Shown here: piece after piece, positions 7,798 through 63,288 of the stretch | Numbering within the stretch: position 1 is the first letter of the stretch | Layout: each line of letters starts with the position of its first letter | DNA from: Yimella lutea | GTDB taxonomy: Bacteria > Actinomycetota > Actinomycetes > Actinomycetales > Dermatophilaceae | DNA: 64,000 bases | Direction: 5' to 3' | Assembly: GCF_006715095.1 (NCBI RefSeq) | Contig: NZ_VFMO01000001.1 | Location: forward strand, 372,001-436,000 | Notes under the pieces: generated by a model | Told to the model about the DNA's origin: nothing | What the model saw: only the letters and a program-made list of their open reading frames with translations | Database searches by the model: none | Translations under genes and position numbers: made by a program

Positions 7798-8493
7798 ATG
7801 AACACACCACTGCGGACGGCAGCGCTCGGCATCGCACTCACCTCCAGCCTCGTTCTCGCCGCCTGCGGCGGGTCGAGCGAGACGATCGGGTCCAGCTCCA
7901 CCACGTCGAACTCCATCAAGTCGGGCACGTCGACCGGTTCGAACACCCAGGCGTCACACAACAGTGACGGCAGCACCCCACCGGGGTCGCAGTTACGTTT
8001 CGGCACGGCCGGCACCTTCGAGCGCACGACGATCGACAAAGGCAAGTACCGCTCGACCATTACGGTGCAGCAGCCGGAACAGGGCAGCGAAGACGACCTG
8101 GCGAAGATCCGTGAGATCGAGGACTTCGACTACCCGTCGGGGGCCACCGCATACTTCGTGCGGTACACCGTGCGGTACGACGCGGTCGACGCGGTCGCCG
8201 CCAAGAATCTGGGCGATGAGAACTCGGTGCCCGAGCGCCTCTCGCTGGATTCGATCGACCAGACCGGCTACGACAGCTCCGCGTCGGCGAAGGTCGGTGC
8301 GGGAGGCAAGAGCTACGCCTTCGACAAGTGCGCCATGGCCGAGCTGCCCGAAACTGTCCAGAACGGCACAACCGCGAGCTCGTGCCTGGTCTTCGTGCTC
8401 TTCCCCGGCAAGAAGCTGACCAAGGTGCGCTACGACGGCCAGGACAAGAGTCCGTACTCGTCGGAGGGCGGCAAGCCGGTCTTCTGGTCCTGA
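7798..8493 (+). CDS. Lipoprotein of unknown function
   Basis: 231 residues from ATG 7798, preceded by AAAGGAGAAACACC, a strong ribosome-binding site. The N-terminus MNTPLRTAALGIALTSS followed by LVLAACGG is a lipoprotein signal peptide with lipobox LAAC (Cys about residue 22). A Ser/Thr/Gly-rich linker (about 25-65) tethers a small globular domain with AYFVRYTVRYDAVDA and ASSCLVFVLFP; the latter resembles the immunoglobulin-like DUF4352 class of actinobacterial lipoproteins, but I would not name the domain firmly. Two Cys in the mature domain could pair. It lies alone, followed at once by a perfect terminator hairpin. Confidence 0.85.
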   Translation: MNTPLRTAALGIALTSSLVLAACGGSSETIGSSSTTSNSIKSGTSTGSNTQASHNSDGSTPPGSQLRFGTAGTFERTTIDKGKYRSTITVQQPEQGSEDDLAKIREIEDFDYPSGATAYFVRYTVRYDAVDAVAAKNLGDENSVPERLSLDSIDQTGYDSSASAKVGAGGKSYAFDKCAMAELPETVQNGTTASSCLVFVLFPGKKLTKVRYDGQDKSPYSSEGGKPVFWS

Positions 8494-8494
8494 G

Positions 8495-8535
8495 CAGGTG
8501 GGTCGGCGCGATTGCGCGCCGACCCACCTGTTTCC
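8495..8535 (+). terminator. Intrinsic terminator after the lipoprotein gene
   Basis: CAGGTGGGTCGGCGCG (8495-8510), loop ATTG, then the exact complement (8515-8530), followed by TTTCC. The 16-bp perfect stem starts 1 bp after the stop codon. Confidence 0.92.
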
Positions 8536-8548
8536 ACATGTTCTCTTC

Positions 8549-8665
8549 TCAGCGGTGCCGCAGGACGGCGTACAGCACGAAGCCCGCGACCAGTCCCCAC
8601 AACGCCGATCCGATGAAGGCGATGTGCACGCCGGACTCGGGGATGTTCACGGCGTCGATGGTGCC
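8549..8665 (-). pseudogene. Remnant of a second BenE-type transporter (C-terminus only)
   Basis: The minus strand ends with FIGSALWGLVAGFVLYAVLR-HR and a stop at 8549, nearly the same as the BenE C-terminus at 2693 (IGSAFWGLVAGLVLYVVLRR). By eye the two DNA stretches agree at roughly 78% of about 80 bases. Only about 25-30 codons of BenE remain. Upstream the reading changes to GTIDAVNIPESGVHIAF, which instead resembles the trhO start region (SSGVHIAF) and the bases in front of it. It is therefore a fragment, possibly a recombination junction, not a functional gene. Confidence 0.7.
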
Positions 8666-8739
8666 AGCGGCGCGGGGCTGCCTTGAAAATCGACGCGGAT
8701 GCGACATGATCGGCACATCTCGGGGAGCAGAAGGAAACC

Positions 8740-8964
8740 ATGCGTCGAGTGTTCGTGGCGATCGCCGCTGCGTTGTTGGGGTCGAGTGTGCTGACGGGTT
8801 GTTGGACCGAGAGGCCCTGCTCGGACGGCGAGTATCCGGTGACCGGCACGGGCACCAATACCGGTGGCTCCGTGTGTGTGAAGGACGGTGAGGCGCCCCC
8901 GTCCGGCTTCGGCACCTACCCGCCCGGTAAGACGCCGATGGTTGCTGGTGAAACGCCGACCTGA
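8740..8964 (+). CDS. Small lipoprotein, SCO0607-like
   Basis: 74 residues from ATG 8740 with an AAGGAAACC ribosome-binding site. The signal peptide MRRVFVAIAAALLGSS ends at the lipobox LTGC (Cys about 21). The mature part has four Cys-rich/Gly-rich landmarks: CSDGEYPV, GGSVCVKDGEAPP and the tail TYPPGKTPMVAGETPT. This pattern fits a small family of secreted Streptomyces-type lipoproteins (SCO0607 family, recalled from memory). Function unknown. It stands alone between pseudogene remnants. Confidence 0.75.
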   Translation: MRRVFVAIAAALLGSSVLTGCWTERPCSDGEYPVTGTGTNTGGSVCVKDGEAPPSGFGTYPPGKTPMVAGETPT

Positions 8965-8967
8965 GTC

Positions 8968-9337
8968 TCAACGAAGCCGAGGGATGACGTCTGTCACAAC
9001 CGTCTCCAGAGTTTCACGTGAACCCACGTCGACCGCGTCCTGTCGCGGCCAGTGGGTGATGACGTCGGTGAACCCGAGTTCGGCGGCACGTCCGACCAGG
9101 GATGCTCGGCCAGCTGCATGCCGCGGCACCGAGCACGGGGATGTCGAGCTCAGCGGTTCGCCGGACCAGGGCGATCTCGGTGTCGTCACGTTCCGTGAGG
9201 GGAGCGTCGGACGCCGGGTGGCGGATGTCGGCGTACCGCAGCGGATCGATGTCGGCGCCGCCCGCCGGCTGGTCGCGCCAGGGTCCGTGGCTGACCGGTT
9301 CTGCGTAGGTGGTGATGCCGACGAGCGAGCGACTCAC
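8968..9337 (-). pseudogene. Mosaic pseudogene: peptidase C26 (PuuD-like) fused to a luciferase-like tail
   Basis: GTG 9337 overlaps the stop of the MazG-like gene (GTGA) and starts SRSLVGITTYAEPVSHG, the N-terminus of gamma-glutamyl-GABA hydrolase relatives. After WRDQPA it jumps to GGADIDPLRYADIRHP and TELDIPVLG-like sequence, so about 60 codons are missing. The catalytic elbow CRGMQLA is readable only in another frame near 9108-9128. A third frame then gives SLVGRAAELGFTDVITHWPR, typical of the C-terminus of flavin-dependent luciferase-like monooxygenases, to a stop at 8968. Two unrelated genes have been joined by deletion and frameshifts. Confidence 0.65.
9011..9024. promoter_or_regulatory. 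parS-like site distant from parAB
   Basis: GTTTCACGTGAACC matches the parS core GTTTCACGTGAAAC at 13 of 14 positions. It lies inside the mosaic pseudogene, about 22 kb from parB. Binding is inferred from sequence only. Confidence 0.5.
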
Positions 9338-9666
9338 CGCGCCTGCCCGGCGGCCCCGTGCACCGACTCCCAGTGCAACCATTTGTCGGCGATCGCCCGG
9401 TCGACATCGATGCCGGTGCGGCGCGCGAACACCAGCAGCATGCCGATCGCGTCCGCCCATTCCGCGGCGAGCGCCTGCTCCTTCTGCTGATCGTCGAGGC
9501 CACGATCGCGGCCCTGCCCGGACGCGGTCAGCCACGCCTGGGCGAGCTCGCCGACCTCCTCGGTCAGTTTGAGCAGCACCCACTCGGGAGTGCGGTCGAC
9601 GTCGTAGGCACGCGAGTAGCCCGCGGAGATGTGATCGATGCGGTCGGCGTACTCGGAAAGTTCCAC
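9334..9666 (-). CDS. MazG-like nucleotide pyrophosphohydrolase family protein
   Basis: 110 residues from GTG 9666 (ELSEYADRIDHISAGYSRAY). The all-alpha MazG-like fold is indicated by KLTEEVGELAQAW (metal-binding EExxE-type helix, residues about 31-43) and AAEWADAIGMLLVFARR (the ExxD helix, about 68-84). Such proteins hydrolyse NTPs to NMP and pyrophosphate and are thought to clean nucleotide pools. The stop overlaps the GTG of the C26 pseudogene, so the two were once an operon. The gene is divergent from the S51 peptidase 72 bp away. Substrate cannot be told from sequence. Confidence 0.82.
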   Translation of the reverse strand: MELSEYADRIDHISAGYSRAYDVDRTPEWVLLKLTEEVGELAQAWLTASGQGRDRGLDDQQKEQALAAEWADAIGMLLVFARRTGIDVDRAIADKWLHWESVHGAAGQAR

Positions 9667-9738
9667 CCGCGCACCGTAGCCGCGCGCGCCGACAGCAATC
9701 GAGTTGCGCCGGGACTCCACCACCGAAAGGGTCGAGCC

Positions 9739-10440
9739 ATGAACGGGACGATCGTGACTCTGGGCGGCGGCGGGTTCTCGGATGCACACCGCGACTCCGC
9801 GATCGACGACTTCCTGCTCGACCTGACGGGAGCCTCGAGGCCGAAGGTCTGCTTCGTACCGACCGCGAGCGGTGACGCGGACGGGTACTCGCAGCGCTTC
9901 GAGGAGGCTTTCGCGGGCCGCGCGACGACGTCCGTGCTGTCGCTGTTCTGCCACAACCCGTGGGGTTACCTCGACCCGGAAATGCTGCTCGACCAGCACC
10001 TCATCTATGTCGGCGGCGGGTCGACCGCGAACCTGCTCGCGGTGTGGCGCCTGCACGGACTCCCCGACATCCTGTGGCGCGCAACGGAGCACGGCACCGT
10101 GCTGGCCGGTATCAGCGCGGGGATGAACTGCTGGTTCGAGCAGTCGTCGACCGACTCCTTCGGACCGCTCGCGCCGATGGACGACGGTCTCGGTTTTCTG
10201 CCCGGGAGCGCGTGCCCGCACAATCTCGGGGAGTCCGAGCGACGAGATCAGTACCTCGGCTGGGTCGCCTCCGGCGCGTTGAAGGACGGGTGGGCGGTCG
10301 ACGATCACACCGCCCTGGTCTTCCGCGACGGCGAGTTCCTCGAAGCCATCGGTGAGCAGGACGGTCACCCGGCATTCCGGGTCGAACGGCGCGACGACGA
10401 GGCGCTCGAGACCGCTCTCGACGTCCGTCTGCTGCGTTAA
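9739..10440 (+). CDS. Peptidase S51 family protein (PepE-like)
   Basis: 233 residues from ATG 9739. The S51 (alpha-aspartyl dipeptidase/cyanophycinase) fold is shown by the N-terminal TIVTLGGGGFS, FVPTASGDADGY, IYVGGGSTANLLAVWRLHG, and the nucleophile elbow LAGISAGMNCWF with Ser at about residue 129. A later His/Glu pairing cannot be assigned by eye. PepE-type enzymes are cytoplasmic and remove N-terminal Asp from dipeptides; the exact specificity here is unknown. The stop TAA interlocks with the TAA of the convergent glycosyltransferase gene through the palindrome TTAA. A second, different S51-like protein occurs at 60090. Confidence 0.85.
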   Translation: MNGTIVTLGGGGFSDAHRDSAIDDFLLDLTGASRPKVCFVPTASGDADGYSQRFEEAFAGRATTSVLSLFCHNPWGYLDPEMLLDQHLIYVGGGSTANLLAVWRLHGLPDILWRATEHGTVLAGISAGMNCWFEQSSTDSFGPLAPMDDGLGFLPGSACPHNLGESERRDQYLGWVASGALKDGWAVDDHTALVFRDGEFLEAIGEQDGHPAFRVERRDDEALETALDVRLLR

Positions 10441-58966: not shown

Positions 58967-60121
58967 CTACTCGTAGAAGTACTGCGCCGATCCGGGGTAG
59001 ATCCAGCTCAGACCCTCGCGCAATCGGTCGCGCCAGTCCTCCCACGAGTGACCGTCGCGTGCTTCGGAGTAGCGAACGTCCATCCCGGTGCCGCGGAACA
59101 CGTCGACCATCGACCGGTTCGGCACGATCAGCGGCTCGTAGATGCCGCAGGACTGGTACATCCGGTCGACGACGCGGCGCGGTTTGGCACGGTACCGGTT
59201 CATGAACCGCACCACCGGGTCGAACGCAGGCCCGCCGCCGTGCTCGTTGCCGATGTCGGTGAACACGAACGAACCCGACTGCACCAGAAGGGAACCGAAG
59301 AAGTCGGGGTAGCGGTACGCGGTCGACAGACTGGCAACGCCACCGAACGAGGCACCCATCAGGCAGCGTCCGGCCGGCGTGCCGAGCAACGGCAGTTCAC
59401 TCTCCAGTCGGGGGATGAGCTCGGAGTGCAGGAAGCGCGCGTGTTGCGCACTGTTGGCGTACTCGCGCGTCCGATCGCCGGGGTTGGTGAACGCCACGAT
59501 CGTCTCGGCCATGTCGCGGCGGTGGATCAAGTTGTCGAGCACGTTCTTCATCGCGGCAAACTCCAGGAAGTCGTCGCCGTCATGCACCACCAGCAGGGGG
59601 TAACGGTGCGTGGTGCTGAATCGCGCGGGCAGGTAGACGCGGCAATGGGATTCGCGACGCAGCGCACCGCTGGCCTGGCTCAGTTCGAGCAGCTCTCCCG
59701 GACGTGAGTCGGGATCGAACCGAGCCCACTCCGGCTCGGTGTAACCGGTCGCCTGGCACACCGACGACGAGCCCACCGGACTGTGCGCGAGTTTGGGATT
59801 CAGCGGGTCGTTGAACCGTTCGTAGTGCTCTGCGCGACGTACCTCTATCTGATACTCCACCCGAGACCCGGCCGGCAACTCCATGATCGTGAACCACAGG
59901 CTGGTGTTGCCCAGGCGCTTCATCGGCACGCGGTCGGGCTGCCCGACGATGCGGTGGCACACCCACACCTCGTCCACGCCGTCGTCTTCGCCGCCACGGA
60001 AGAGGAAGGTGCACTTCGGTCCCTCGACGATCGGCACCTGGTGACGCTGCAGGAACCGGTCGATCCGGCTCTCGTCCAACGGCTTTCGCTCACGCAGTCG
60101 GTTGATTGCCAGCTTGCGCAT
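58967..60121 (-). CDS. Esterase, alpha/beta-hydrolase (enterochelin-esterase-like)
   Basis: 384 residues from ATG 60121, preceded by AGGAGGTGACG. An N-terminal immunoglobulin-like domain (about 25-140, VWVCHRIVGQPDRVPMKRLG) is followed by a Fes/esterase-D type hydrolase: LPARFSTTHRYPLLVVHDGD, nucleophile elbow CLMGASFGGVASLSTAY (Ser about residue 262) and the His segment DGHSWEDWRDRLREGL. The enterochelin esterase family hydrolyses ester or depsipeptide bonds. No signal peptide. Its 5' end overlaps the 3' end of the S51-like gene by 32 bp. Third gene of the ATP-grasp operon. Confidence 0.85.
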   Translation of the reverse strand: MRKLAINRLRERKPLDESRIDRFLQRHQVPIVEGPKCTFLFRGGEDDGVDEVWVCHRIVGQPDRVPMKRLGNTSLWFTIMELPAGSRVEYQIEVRRAEHYERFNDPLNPKLAHSPVGSSSVCQATGYTEPEWARFDPDSRPGELLELSQASGALRRESHCRVYLPARFSTTHRYPLLVVHDGDDFLEFAAMKNVLDNLIHRRDMAETIVAFTNPGDRTREYANSAQHARFLHSELIPRLESELPLLGTPAGRCLMGASFGGVASLSTAYRYPDFFGSLLVQSGSFVFTDIGNEHGGGPAFDPVVRFMNRYRAKPRRVVDRMYQSCGIYEPLIVPNRSMVDVFRGTGMDVRYSEARDGHSWEDWRDRLREGLSWIYPGSAQYFYE

Positions 60122-61055
60122 CGTCACCTCCTACAACCTGCATCGGACGCATGATGCCGGCATCGTCGATCACCGGGGTGTCGGCCGGGAGGGTGCCGTC
60201 CGAACCGATCACGACGCGCGCGCCGGGGTCGAGCGGGATGCACGTGTTGGGCGCGAACCGGCGGGCCAGCAGCCCCAGGTTCTGCTTGTCGTTCGTCCGC
60301 AACCGCTGCTTCGCCGACGGGAACACCGTCACCTCGGGCAGCAGACCCAGGCCGTGGTCGAACACCTCCGAGCAGCCAGGTCCGCGCACCGCGTGCTCGT
60401 CGAAGAGCACGACCCGTGAGGTGAGTGCCATCGCGCCCGCCGACCACGCGATGATCGGAAGCCTGTGCAGGCCAACGGCATTCACGTTGAACAGGTGCAG
60501 CGCGTCCAGTAGTTCGACGATGTGTCCACCCGTGATCACGACGGCCGCGGCGTCCGACATCAACTCGGCGACCTCGGCGCGGTGTTCGGCGACTGACGGC
60601 CGCTCGTGCGGCGGGAAGTCGCTGTAGAAGCGTCCCTGGATCTCCGCGACGCGGCGGATGTGCTGCTTGTCCATGCCGCGCAACACGTTGACCGCGTCCT
60701 CGACGGCGAGTTCACGCAGCGCTGCCGAACCGGAGGTGCGGTGTCGTAGTTCGTCCAGGAACTGCACGATGTGCGAGAGCCCGAGCTGGTAGTTCTCCTG
60801 CAGTTCGAGCAGTTGCGAGCGCCGGGCACGGTGCGCGGCGGCGTACTCCGGGTCGGACCCGAACACCTGCTGCATCCGGTGCCACAGGTGCAGGTTCCGC
60901 GACCGTCCGCCCAGGTGCCGGTCGAGCTCGGAGTCGTCCTTCTCCCGCTCCTGCCACCCGGCGGTCACGGTCGCGAACGGACCGCCCAGGCCGAGCGAGC
61001 ACACGAGCTTGTCCAGGGATGGCCGCCGCTGCGGCCCCAACAGAACGACGGTCAT
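60090..61055 (-). CDS. Type 1 GATase-like / S51-like hydrolase (cyanophycinase-related)
   Basis: 321 residues from ATG 61055 (MTVVLLGPQRRPSL). The S51/GATase-like fold shows AAAVVITGGHIVELLDALHL and the nucleophile elbow PIIAWSAGAMALTSRVVLFD with Ser. A helical insert (LWHRMQQVFGSDPEYAAAHR) separates the first strand from the rest, longer than in PepE. Possible functions are hydrolysis of isopeptide or Asp-type bonds, as in cyanophycinase. No glutaminase triad Cys is present. Second gene of the operon. ATP-grasp ligase lies upstream, the esterase downstream. Confidence 0.75.
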   Translation of the reverse strand: MTVVLLGPQRRPSLDKLVCSLGLGGPFATVTAGWQEREKDDSELDRHLGGRSRNLHLWHRMQQVFGSDPEYAAAHRARRSQLLELQENYQLGLSHIVQFLDELRHRTSGSAALRELAVEDAVNVLRGMDKQHIRRVAEIQGRFYSDFPPHERPSVAEHRAEVAELMSDAAAVVITGGHIVELLDALHLFNVNAVGLHRLPIIAWSAGAMALTSRVVLFDEHAVRGPGCSEVFDHGLGLLPEVTVFPSAKQRLRTNDKQNLGLLARRFAPNTCIPLDPGARVVIGSDGTLPADTPVIDDAGIMRPMQVVGGDDAQAGNQPTA

Positions 61056-61072
61056 CGCGCAGCACACCCCGA

Positions 61073-61134
61073 GAATCCGCGTGAGTTGGTGCCCTTCGCC
61101 ATGCCCGGCGAAGGGCACGAACTCACGCCGATTT
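61073..61134 (-). repeat. Very long hairpin filling the ATP-grasp/S51-like gap
   Basis: CGTGAGTTGGTGCCCTTCGC-C (61080-61100) pairs with 61107-61127 over 21 bp with one mismatch and a 6-nt loop ATGCCC; pairing extends outward to 61073/61134, giving about 28 bp with two mismatches. It lies wholly between the ATP-grasp stop (61141) and the next start (61055). No T-run. Attenuator, RNA-processing site or mobile palindrome. Confidence 0.85.
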
Positions 61135-61140
61135 CAGCGG

Positions 61141-62355
61141 TCACTGAGCGCGCACCTGGACGATGCGTCCGATGTCGTCGAGCACACCGCGTAACGTGTC
61201 GAAGTCCCTGTGCCGCAGGCGCATCCACGCGTTGGCCATGTAGCCGGCTTCGATCGGCTGGGTGCCCTGGCCGATCGGCAGGTGCTCGTCGATGAGCAGC
61301 GATCCGTACTTGCTGCGCACCTCGTCCAGACCGTCGATGTGGGTGATCACGCCGTCCCGGTCGGGGCGCAGGGCGATGATGCCGGACGCGTACTGCCGAC
61401 TCGGCACGTGCCACACGCGTCCGTGCACGATGGCATCGGCCCAGGCGCGGAAGATGTCGATGTCGTTGCCCGCCGCGTACAGATCCCAGCAACCGACGCC
61501 CGGTGGACGCGCGCCGATCTCGCTGAACCGCAAGCCTTTCGGGCTGACGAAGTACTCCATGTGGGTTGCGGACGTCTCGATGCCGAGGGCCGCGTTGACC
61601 CGCTCGCCGAGGTCGCGCAGGTCGGCGTACAGACCACCCTCGTCGACCCTGTTCGTCGAGATGTACTGCGGGCTGATCCAGCGGGTGCGCATCGCCTCGA
61701 GCACGCCGGGGTAGTAGTGGCAGGCGAAGTCGAGCTTGATCTCGCCGCCGACACTGACGGTGTCGTAGAACCCCTCGTGCCCCTCGATGAACTCCTCGAC
61801 CGCGACCGACGGCATGTCACCGAGCGAGTCGAGCACCGCCGCGAGCTCGGTGTCGTTGCTGACCTTGTGCGTGCCCGCCGCGCCTGCCCCATCCCGCGGT
61901 TTGATGATGATCGGGTAGCCGTTCTCGGCGGCGAACGTCCGGACCTCGTCGGCGCTGGATGCACCGGTCGACGCAGCCGTCGGCACCCCCGCCTTGCGCA
62001 ACGCGTCCTTCATCGCCGGCTTGTCGCGGCACAGGTAGGTGGTGTGGACGCTGGTGCCCGGGATGCCGTGACGTTCCCGGACGACCGCGGCCGGCAGCGT
62101 GTGGGACTCGATCGTCGCCTCGAGCGCGTCGACCCAGGCCAGGCTCTGGAAATGTGAGACCCCGGCGGACAACTGGTCGACGTCGGTGACCGAACCGACC
62201 TGGTAGTAGTGGTCGATCCAGCCCTGCAGCTCTTCGTCGAGCCACTCCCAGGGCGTCTCGCCGACGGCGAAGACGGTCGCTCCGACAGCCTTGAGGGCGC
62301 GCGGGAACTCGCGCTGGTTGCGCGGGAAATTGGGTTCGACGAAGACGACGTTCAC
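61141..62355 (-). CDS. ATP-grasp ligase family protein
   Basis: 404 residues from ATG 62355 (MNVVFVEPNFPRNQREFPRA). N-terminal Rossmann-like domain, then ATP-grasp: TYLCRDKPAMKDALRKAGVP, IIIKPRDGAGAAGTHKVSN (nucleotide-binding lysine and Gly loop, about residue 150) and the metal-binding LRFSEIGARPPGVGCWDLY (about 280). ATP-grasp enzymes activate a carboxylate as acyl phosphate and join it to an amine or thiol. Substrate unknown. First gene of an operon with S51-like and esterase genes, which together suggest synthesis and turnover of an amide- or ester-linked small molecule or polymer. Confidence 0.88.
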   Translation of the reverse strand: MNVVFVEPNFPRNQREFPRALKAVGATVFAVGETPWEWLDEELQGWIDHYYQVGSVTDVDQLSAGVSHFQSLAWVDALEATIESHTLPAAVVRERHGIPGTSVHTTYLCRDKPAMKDALRKAGVPTAASTGASSADEVRTFAAENGYPIIIKPRDGAGAAGTHKVSNDTELAAVLDSLGDMPSVAVEEFIEGHEGFYDTVSVGGEIKLDFACHYYPGVLEAMRTRWISPQYISTNRVDEGGLYADLRDLGERVNAALGIETSATHMEYFVSPKGLRFSEIGARPPGVGCWDLYAAGNDIDIFRAWADAIVHGRVWHVPSRQYASGIIALRPDRDGVITHIDGLDEVRSKYGSLLIDEHLPIGQGTQPIEAGYMANAWMRLRHRDFDTLRGVLDDIGRIVQVRAQ

Positions 62356-62475: not shown

Positions 62476-63288
62476 TCAGTGACGGGAGATGCCGTCGGTC
62501 TCGGACGAGACCGGGTTCACCTTGTCGGTGTCGGCAGCAGCGGCCTGGGTGGCGCGCACCGTGGCCTGCGCCTGGCGACGCTCCTGCTTCTTCTTGTTGT
62601 TGTCGTAGATCAGGAATCCGCCGGCGGCCACGCCCGCGAGACCCAGCACGATCAGGACGGTGCCCTTCTTCTTGCGCTTCTTCGCAGCGGCCGGGACGAC
62701 CTTGTCGACGACGTCCTGCGCCTGCGGCGGGAGGGCGAGGTAGGCCTGGGTGGCCTGGTCGCCTGCGCGGTGGCCGGCCTGCTGCGCGGTGGCGGCAGCG
62801 GTCGCGATCGCGGTCTGGATGCGCGGCATCCACTCGTCCGAGAACAGCGAGTGCGCCTGATCACGGGTCAGCCCCGCGAACTCCTGGAGCTTCTCGCCCT
62901 TGTTGTCGGCGTGAGCTGCGTCCAGCGCAGCAGCCTTGGCGGCCTCGAACTTGGGCGCAGCAGCCTTCTTGGCGTCCTTGATCTTCGGCGCCGCAGCCTT
63001 GCGCGCGTCCTTGTAGGTGGACGCGGCCGTGGCGGCAGCGGTCGCAGCGAGCGGCGCTGCGGCTTCCTTGGCGCTGTGCAGTTTGGGCGCAGCGGCGTCG
63101 CGGGCGGCCTCGACGCGCGGGGCGACAGCCTCCCTCGCGGCTTCGACCTTCGGTGAGTTCGCGGCGGCCTCGTTGGCCTTGTCGAGCGCAGCGGTCAGGG
63201 CAAGGGACGCGGCGGACTTGAAGTCACGGACGCCGTCCTTGGCCTTGTCGGCCGCCTTGTCGGCGGGCGAGGGGTTGATCCTCAACAC
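62476..63288 (-). CDS. Alanine/lysine-rich, apolipoprotein-like membrane-anchored protein
   Basis: 270 residues from GTG 63288 (LRINPSPADKAADKAKD), which has AAAAGGAGACACAC upstream; ATG 63306 is an alternative. Long Ala/Lys/Glu repeats of 11-residue amphipathic type (APRVEAARDAAAPKLHSAKE and KDARKAAAPKIKDAKKAAAP) make an extended helix like apolipoproteins or LEA proteins. A membrane helix GTVLIVLGLAGVAAGGFLIY (about 205-225) and a polar tail close it. No family function is known; a nucleoid- or membrane-associated rod is a guess. Two 26-bp direct repeats lie just upstream. Confidence 0.82.
   Translation of the reverse strand: MLRINPSPADKAADKAKDGVRDFKSAASLALTAALDKANEAAANSPKVEAAREAVAPRVEAARDAAAPKLHSAKEAAAPLAATAAATAASTYKDARKAAAPKIKDAKKAAAPKFEAAKAAALDAAHADNKGEKLQEFAGLTRDQAHSLFSDEWMPRIQTAIATAAATAQQAGHRAGDQATQAYLALPPQAQDVVDKVVPAAAKKRKKKGTVLIVLGLAGVAAGGFLIYDNNKKKQERRQAQATVRATQAAAADTDKVNPVSSETDGISRH

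Follow-up and report, generated by a model that had tools for sequence, protein, structure and literature searches.

In the genome of Yimella lutea, a single contig of 3.53 Mb, we analysed a stretch of 64,000 nucleotides (positions 372,001 to 436,000 of contig NZ_VFMO01000001.1, hereafter the window) and within it a three-gene operon, the triad, that encodes an ATP-grasp protein (ATPG), a protein with the fold of the S51 peptidase cyanophycinase (the S51 protein) and a Fes-like esterase (FES) (Table 1). A first-pass annotation had placed these genes in one same-strand operon, and this arrangement is confirmed: the FES and S51 genes overlap by 32 bp if FES starts at the ATG at 60121 and by 38 bp if it starts at the GTG at 60127. 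Pfam supports the ATP-grasp and PF00756 assignments, and the S51 protein reaches 21.8 bits against PF03575, below the gathering threshold of 23.9 bits, with some of its orthologues carrying PF03575 in the protein database. The closest named relatives of the triad proteins, among the best 120 of thousands of matches in protein database searches, come from Yimella.

The triad is conserved as a unit. In all 62 S51-carrying loci that we compared, chosen by us and not drawn at random (a 63rd stretch, L078, has no S51 gene), the ATP-grasp, S51-like and Fes-like genes occur together, and in 61 of them they are colinear; the proposed conserved operon combining an ATP-grasp ligase with a Fes-like esterase thus held up in the very comparison that had been set in advance as the one on which it could fail. 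A search of 58 genomes, including that of Y. lutea, found the S51 gene in 23, with the same three-gene order in each. Of 396 genomes sampled across the phylum, nine have a match to the S51 profile at E 1e-5, three of them weak (E about 1e-6) and six strong, and all six strong genomes, Y. lutea among them, have ATP-grasp and Fes-like genes at the locus; within the family, 95 of 186 genomes match S51. Gene calls at the comparative loci came from simple open reading frame scripts that overlooked or mislocated some genes, among them an ATP-grasp gene at L074, and gene presence was therefore judged by tblastn. In four distant members the triad is accompanied by one or two additional ATP-grasp paralogues and followed by the gene for a small PF00756 esterase, here called EST3. 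Relatives of the S51 protein also occur, among the best 120 of 2560 matches, in metagenome-assembled genomes (MAGs), some of them labelled Planctomycetota. On plasmids of Peptoclostridium and Pararhizobium an ATP-grasp gene is directly followed by a gene for an EST3-like esterase, with no S51 gene annotated within 8 kb, and we read the same distant pair from the unannotated record of a Sinorhizobium plasmid; these plasmid pairs are a minimal form of the ATP-grasp/esterase pairing in other phyla. No EST3-like esterase is annotated next to a fourth plasmid homologue of ATPG, from Massilia, and the FES protein of the window had no plasmid matches at E 1e-30.

ATPG very probably works as a ligase of the carboxylate-amine (or carboxylate-hydroxyl) type, as predicted from its fold and profile matches to L-amino-acid ligases and from its retained ATP-grasp residues. 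With the predicted model (mean predicted local distance difference test score, pLDDT, 91.3), RizA (4wd3) is the first hit of a fold search (Foldseek E 4.7e-29, template modelling (TM) scores 0.75/0.78), with BL00235 (3vot) also near, and RizA is likewise the best solved relative by sequence profile. Residues K112, E267, E279 and R283 are present in 47 of 47 aligned rows, the window included, and K152, E187 and E188 in 46 of 47, so that ATPG has both the L-amino-acid-ligase fold and the ATP-grasp residues. It shares with RizA, BL00235 and BacD (3wnz) the fold, the lysines, which we take to bind ATP, and two glutamates, which we take to form the metal site; Gly281 of ATPG is Asn in the four distant plasmid homologues. 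A match to a characterised ligase with unrelated neighbours had been named as grounds for giving up the idea of a new system, and the closest such enzyme, RizA, is only 19% identical to ATPG in the fold search. The gene context of ATPG, with S51, Fes-like and, as described below, AGW genes, also differs from the bacilysin gene set. As an idea, the pairing of an amino-acid ligase with an esterase on one polymer resembles a predicted PC-esterase/ATP-grasp fusion of animals (PMC2824669), which, in the available passages of that paper, differs in esterase fold and in being eukaryotic and secreted; the same passages contain no S51 protein and no bacterial operon.

FES, to judge from its sequence, looks like an active PF00756 esterase. 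It scores 87.2 bits against PF00756 and, in its N-terminal part, 26.3 bits against Enterochelin_N (cut-off 27.1), and S260, E331 and H360 are present in all 86 aligned rows (24 rows of alignment A2 plus the 62 loci, some genomes being represented twice). The catalytic Ser and His and a Glu align with enterochelin esterase Fes (2b20), which makes E331 the putative catalytic acid. To this extent the kinship to enterochelin esterase suggested by the first-pass annotation stands, but the best NCBIfam match, enterochelin esterase NF007758, gives 94.1 bits against an equivalog cut-off of 222, and siderophore genes lie outside the conserved neighbourhood. Among the solved relatives of FES there are also carbohydrate esterases whose N-terminal domain is of the carbohydrate-binding or isoamylase type.

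Of the two hydrolases originally proposed, only FES retains intact active-site residues; the S51 protein is probably not a working peptidase. Its model shows a cyanophycinase fold into which a long helical segment (residues 69-146) is inserted. The nucleophile Ser205 (Ser132 in what we take to be CphB numbering) is present, Ser247 aligns in a profile comparison with the catalytic His of cyanophycinase (CphB His174), and R251 aligns with CphB Arg178, the substrate Arg; D129 and W204 are found in 240 of 240 proteins and R251 in 231 of 240. Arg178 of CphB is described as needed together with His174 for substrate binding (PMC12661447). The protein therefore resembles cyanophycinase, pseudo-CphB and peptidase E in its fold, its nucleophile Ser and its substrate Arg, and is unlike cyanophycinase in its helical insertion, in the replacement of the catalytic His and in lacking any PDB match by sequence at E 0.1. 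The claimed kinship to cyanophycinase/PepE accordingly survives for the fold and the nucleophile Ser, and not for the Pfam score or the catalytic His.

Loss of the active site proceeded in steps. Alignment A4 (62 rows) has Ser at the nucleophile position in 51 rows and His at the catalytic position in 24; by residue state, 28 of the 62 loci have Ser and His, 12, the sub-clade of the window, have Ser without His, and 22 have neither (one of these, L176 of genome G534, has a frame-shifted S51 gene, and its residue reading is unreliable). The nucleophile position is Gly in 22 of 62 loci, and the catalytic His is replaced by Ser, Ala, Gly or Asn, with no fixed substitute. Because 109 of the 120 best relatives of a distant S51 member keep both Ser and His (46 of the best 120 from the search with the window protein), the loss of His is derived. 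On a tree that we rooted on L077, the His-less loci form one clade (34 tips, ultrafast bootstrap (UFBoot) 100), within which the Ser-less loci form a nested clade (22 tips, UFBoot 100). The decayed proteins are still constrained by purifying selection, the ratio of nonsynonymous to synonymous substitution (dN/dS) being 0.19-0.28 in ten His-less pairs, compared to 0.08-0.16 for the ATP-grasp protein in the same pairs. In G534 (C1:23353-24326) and G551 (C1:2073677-2074587) the S51 match falls in two different reading frames, as if the gene were being lost or the sequence were in error. One His-less member (P0012) bears the UniRef name cyanophycinase. The residue state also follows gene content: EST3 or M20 peptidase genes come after the triad in 27 of the 28 loci with Ser and His (at the exception, L184, the stretch ends near the triad) and in none of the 34 His-less loci. 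The M20 peptidase matches subfamily PRK07907 (566 bits), presumably a common dipeptidase-like family, and its position beside the triad may therefore be incidental.

A second locus was found through a search for EST3 in 20 chosen genomes. In Y. lutea it consists of FES2, EST2 (the small esterase at this locus) and a divergent ATP-grasp-like protein that we label AGW (Table 1), near genes for an AAA/P-loop protein, a phosphoglucomutase, a maltokinase-GlgB fusion and, in our reading, a TreS-like protein. AGW of Y. lutea is 61% identical to the product of a gene present in three of the four distant triad clusters. All 50 triad-carrying family genomes searched have AGW at a distance from the triad (48 of 48 picked from matches rather than drawn at random, plus Y. 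lutea and G033), the evidence from triad-negative family members being limited to two, G193 and G011, in which AGW was not seen. In the phylum sample, AGW is present in six of six triad genomes and in 22 of 390 others (p 7e-8, kinship ignored). The first-pass annotation had treated the triad as the whole set; AGW and a small esterase appear to belong to it as well. At four of 19 distant AGW loci (L227, L231, L234 and L236) an ABC-2-type transporter ATPase gene, its protein family read from the sequence, lies beside the FES2-EST2-AGW module, with a permease called in three of them; all four genomes are placed in one family (f25), and we treat the association as no more than a lead.

The two small esterases are distributed in a complementary manner. 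All 30 genomes that lack EST3 at the triad have EST2 next to AGW, against two of the 19 with EST3 (Fisher 2.6e-11, kinship ignored), counts that cover 49 of the 50 family genomes, since G029, whose S51 state is not in the table, was left out, and in which the absence of EST3 from G463 is uncertain because its stretch (L184) ends near the triad. Whole-genome searches gave an EST2-type match in 14 of 14 His-less genomes and EST3 alone in five of six genomes with Ser and His. As we read the S51 tree, EST3 was lost at least three separate times. Because of this complementarity, and because EST3-less loci occur in at least three places in the tree, EST2 and EST3 look like alternative suppliers of one step needed by the triad and AGW.

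We propose, with about even confidence, that the triad belongs to a ligase/esterase system, encoded at two loci, whose product is a small compound with amide or ester linkages that the system both makes and trims. The three genes would form the core of an intracellular system, and AGW and a small PF00756 esterase elsewhere on the chromosome would complete the set, the esterase being EST2 at AGW or, in many relatives, the related EST3 directly after the triad. ATPG would, in the manner of L-amino-acid ligases, use ATP to convert a carboxylate to an acyl phosphate and couple this to an acceptor amine or hydroxyl group, and AGW would make a second linkage. FES and the small esterase may cleave an ester of the product or of an intermediate, or transfer it, and the S51-fold protein, having lost its His in this lineage, would bind or position the compound or an enzyme partner without cutting. 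The conserved gene set, the intact active-site residues of ATPG and FES, the loss of the S51 His under continued purifying selection, the co-occurrence with AGW and the complementarity of EST2 and EST3 are observed; the substrates, the product, the order of reactions, the activity of AGW and the binding role of the S51 protein are inferred.

Several observations weigh against this proposal. The enzymes need not act on the same molecule, and the alpha-glucan genes near AGW point to another kind of chemistry. Genomes G009 and G035, the two exceptions among the 19 EST3-bearing genomes, have both esterases, and the His-less genome G536 has EST2 plus a true EST3 remote from the triad. Since the His-less state arose once, its link with the absence of EST3 and M20 is a single event and only suggestive; dN/dS of the S51 gene in seven pairs with Ser and His (0.10-0.57) is not clearly unlike that of the His-less pairs; and nearly all counted genomes belong to one family.

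The first-pass annotation had envisaged a make-and-break set for a storage peptide, capped depsipeptide or tag system; in a storage-peptide role, ATPG would join or polymerise amino acids in a cyanophycin-like manner and the S51 protein and FES would degrade the product. The cyanophycinase fold of the S51 protein, the amide-ligase type of ATPG and the 28 of 62 loci that keep Ser and His (27 of them with EST3 and/or M20 beside the triad) are consistent with such a role, but we give it only a slim chance: the catalytic His is gone from the window and 33 other loci, and Y. lutea encodes a true cyanophycinase (cphB, 255 bits) and cyanophycin synthetase (cphA, 1147 bits), both above cut-off, far from the triad (Table 1). 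The window S51 gene is absent from the TIGR02069 (cyanophycinase) matches of this genome at E 0.001, and the operon holds no CphA-type synthetase, ATPG scoring 33.9 bits against a cut-off of 850. Cyanophycin metabolism itself was therefore rejected as the main role of the triad. About 1.3 kb upstream of the cphB-cphA pair lies a GlgC match, and the window contains a second peptidase-E/cyanophycinase-like open frame at about 9769-10356 on the plus strand (TIGR02069 26.2 bits, E 7e-6). A serine hydrolase without its usual His could also stay active through another base, and the S51 protein of the window's clade would on that account still be a peptidase or amidase. Retention of Ser205 in the window's sub-clade (12 loci) and of the substrate-Arg position speaks for this possibility; the sister sub-clade (22 loci) has lost Ser too and retained the gene, and no fixed residue takes the place of His, which leaves continued catalysis unlikely in our view.

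The main rival to a ligase/esterase system is a modification linked to alpha-glucans, in which glycogen, maltosyl or trehalose intermediates would gain and lose aminoacyl or acyl groups through the ligases and esterases. AGW lies near phosphoglucomutase (Pgm), maltokinase-GlgB (Mak-GlgB) or TreS matches in 22 of 49 family genomes, although some of these genomes may have other GH13 proteins behind the labels TreS or Mak-GlgB; a distant cluster (G231) has glgC and glgA between FES and EST3-AGW; and the carbohydrate esterases among the solved relatives of FES fit the same chemistry. However, no glucan match lies within the stretch compared in 27 of the 49 family genomes, nor at 18 of the 19 distant AGW loci (at L242 a GlgC match lies at the edge), so shared gene order may explain the proximity of AGW to glucan genes, and the triad of the window has no adjoining glucan gene. 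We consider this modification improbable. A route for hydrolysis of a siderophore or other depsipeptide, with FES as the equivalent of enterochelin esterase, appears very unlikely. Its support comes from the NF007758 match and aligned catalytic residues of FES, from G536, where AGW-EST2 lies about 1.5 kb from siderophore uptake and siderophore-interacting genes, and from a TonB siderophore receptor about 6.5 kb from the Pararhizobium plasmid pair. Against this, FES falls far under the equivalog cut-off, and siderophore genes of the G536 type occur at one of 69 AGW loci (G536 itself) and in no triad stretch out of 62 (siderophore synthesis genes were not sought elsewhere in the genome).

Other features of the operon and its surroundings appear to lie outside the conserved system. 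The palindromic repeat between the ATPG and S51 genes occurs in the genome as eight two-armed copies plus a single-arm match (17 half-site matches; a control pattern gave 0). It folds as a strong hairpin on the coding strand (z -6.89 for 88 bases of the gap that contains it), and at the sister Yimella loci L009 and L010 the gap is only 24-33 bases; the repeat is probably an insertion. The operon had 0 Rfam matches at the gathering score. Directly upstream, at about 62476-63288 on the minus strand, is a weak apolipoprotein-like match, below cut-off, whose relatives (family 5) adjoin the triad only in close relatives, which probably reflects shared gene order. Genes for CrgA, DUF881, a glutamine amidotransferase, a rhomboid protein and a cyclophilin are common upstream of the triad in close relatives, and this set looks like ordinary shared gene order.

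Table 1. Features of the triad operon and of the loci compared with it; positions are those of the window unless a contig (C) or locus (L) is given.
Feature	Position	Strand	Description
ATP-grasp ligase (ATPG)	61141..62355	-	404 aa, L-amino-acid-ligase-like; first gene of the operon
S51/cyanophycinase-fold protein	60090..61055	-	321 aa; probable pseudo-peptidase (Ser205 kept, Ser247 at catalytic-His position, R251 kept)
Fes-like esterase (FES)	58967..60127	-	386 aa; alternative start ATG 60121
Palindromic dispersed repeat	61080..61127	.	between ATP-grasp and S51 genes; ~48 bp
FES2-EST2-AGW operon, Y. lutea	C1:1398917-1401927 (L188 6918-9928)		FES2 330 aa, EST2 256 aa, AGW 412 aa
cphB-cphA pair, Y. 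lutea	C1:2393927-2397562 (L195); cphA C1:2394908-2397562		1.96 Mb from triad
Siderophore set of G536	L191 34-4386		siderophore-type substrate-binding protein, FecCD permease fusion, siderophore-interacting protein
Plasmid ATP-grasp + EST3-like pair (Peptoclostridium, Pararhizobium, Sinorhizobium)	L095 8001-9966; L096 8001-9929; L094 about 8001-9923		

Each fold in this set is known, and the combination is apparently undescribed. The statement that no named pathway matches was upheld: in the open-access literature searched (subscription papers were outside its scope) we found, among the results listed (at most 25 per search), no description of the triad or of the ATP-grasp/AGW/esterase set. A 2009 survey of amidoligase gene neighbourhoods may, reportedly, touch on parts of the system. 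Tentatively, and with confidence a shade below even, we suggest an undescribed actinobacterial system, encoded at two loci, that builds and trims its product; relatives of its S51-fold protein occur in MAGs, some of them labelled Planctomycetota. In this system a new kind of small conjugate or modified glycan would be made by two different ATP-grasp ligases together with FES and whichever of the interchangeable small esterases is present, and a cyanophycinase-fold enzyme would have been turned stepwise, by loss of His and then of Ser, into a non-catalytic binding or regulatory subunit under purifying selection. The S51 proteins of the triad should not be annotated as cyanophycinases. The EST2/EST3 replacement pattern and the stepwise loss of the S51 active site together allow the conversion of an enzyme into a pseudo-enzyme to be followed, as in a natural experiment, within a working operon, and the concrete gene set (ATPG, S51, FES, AGW and EST2/EST3) provides a phylogenetic signature sharp enough to steer actinobacterial metabolomics.

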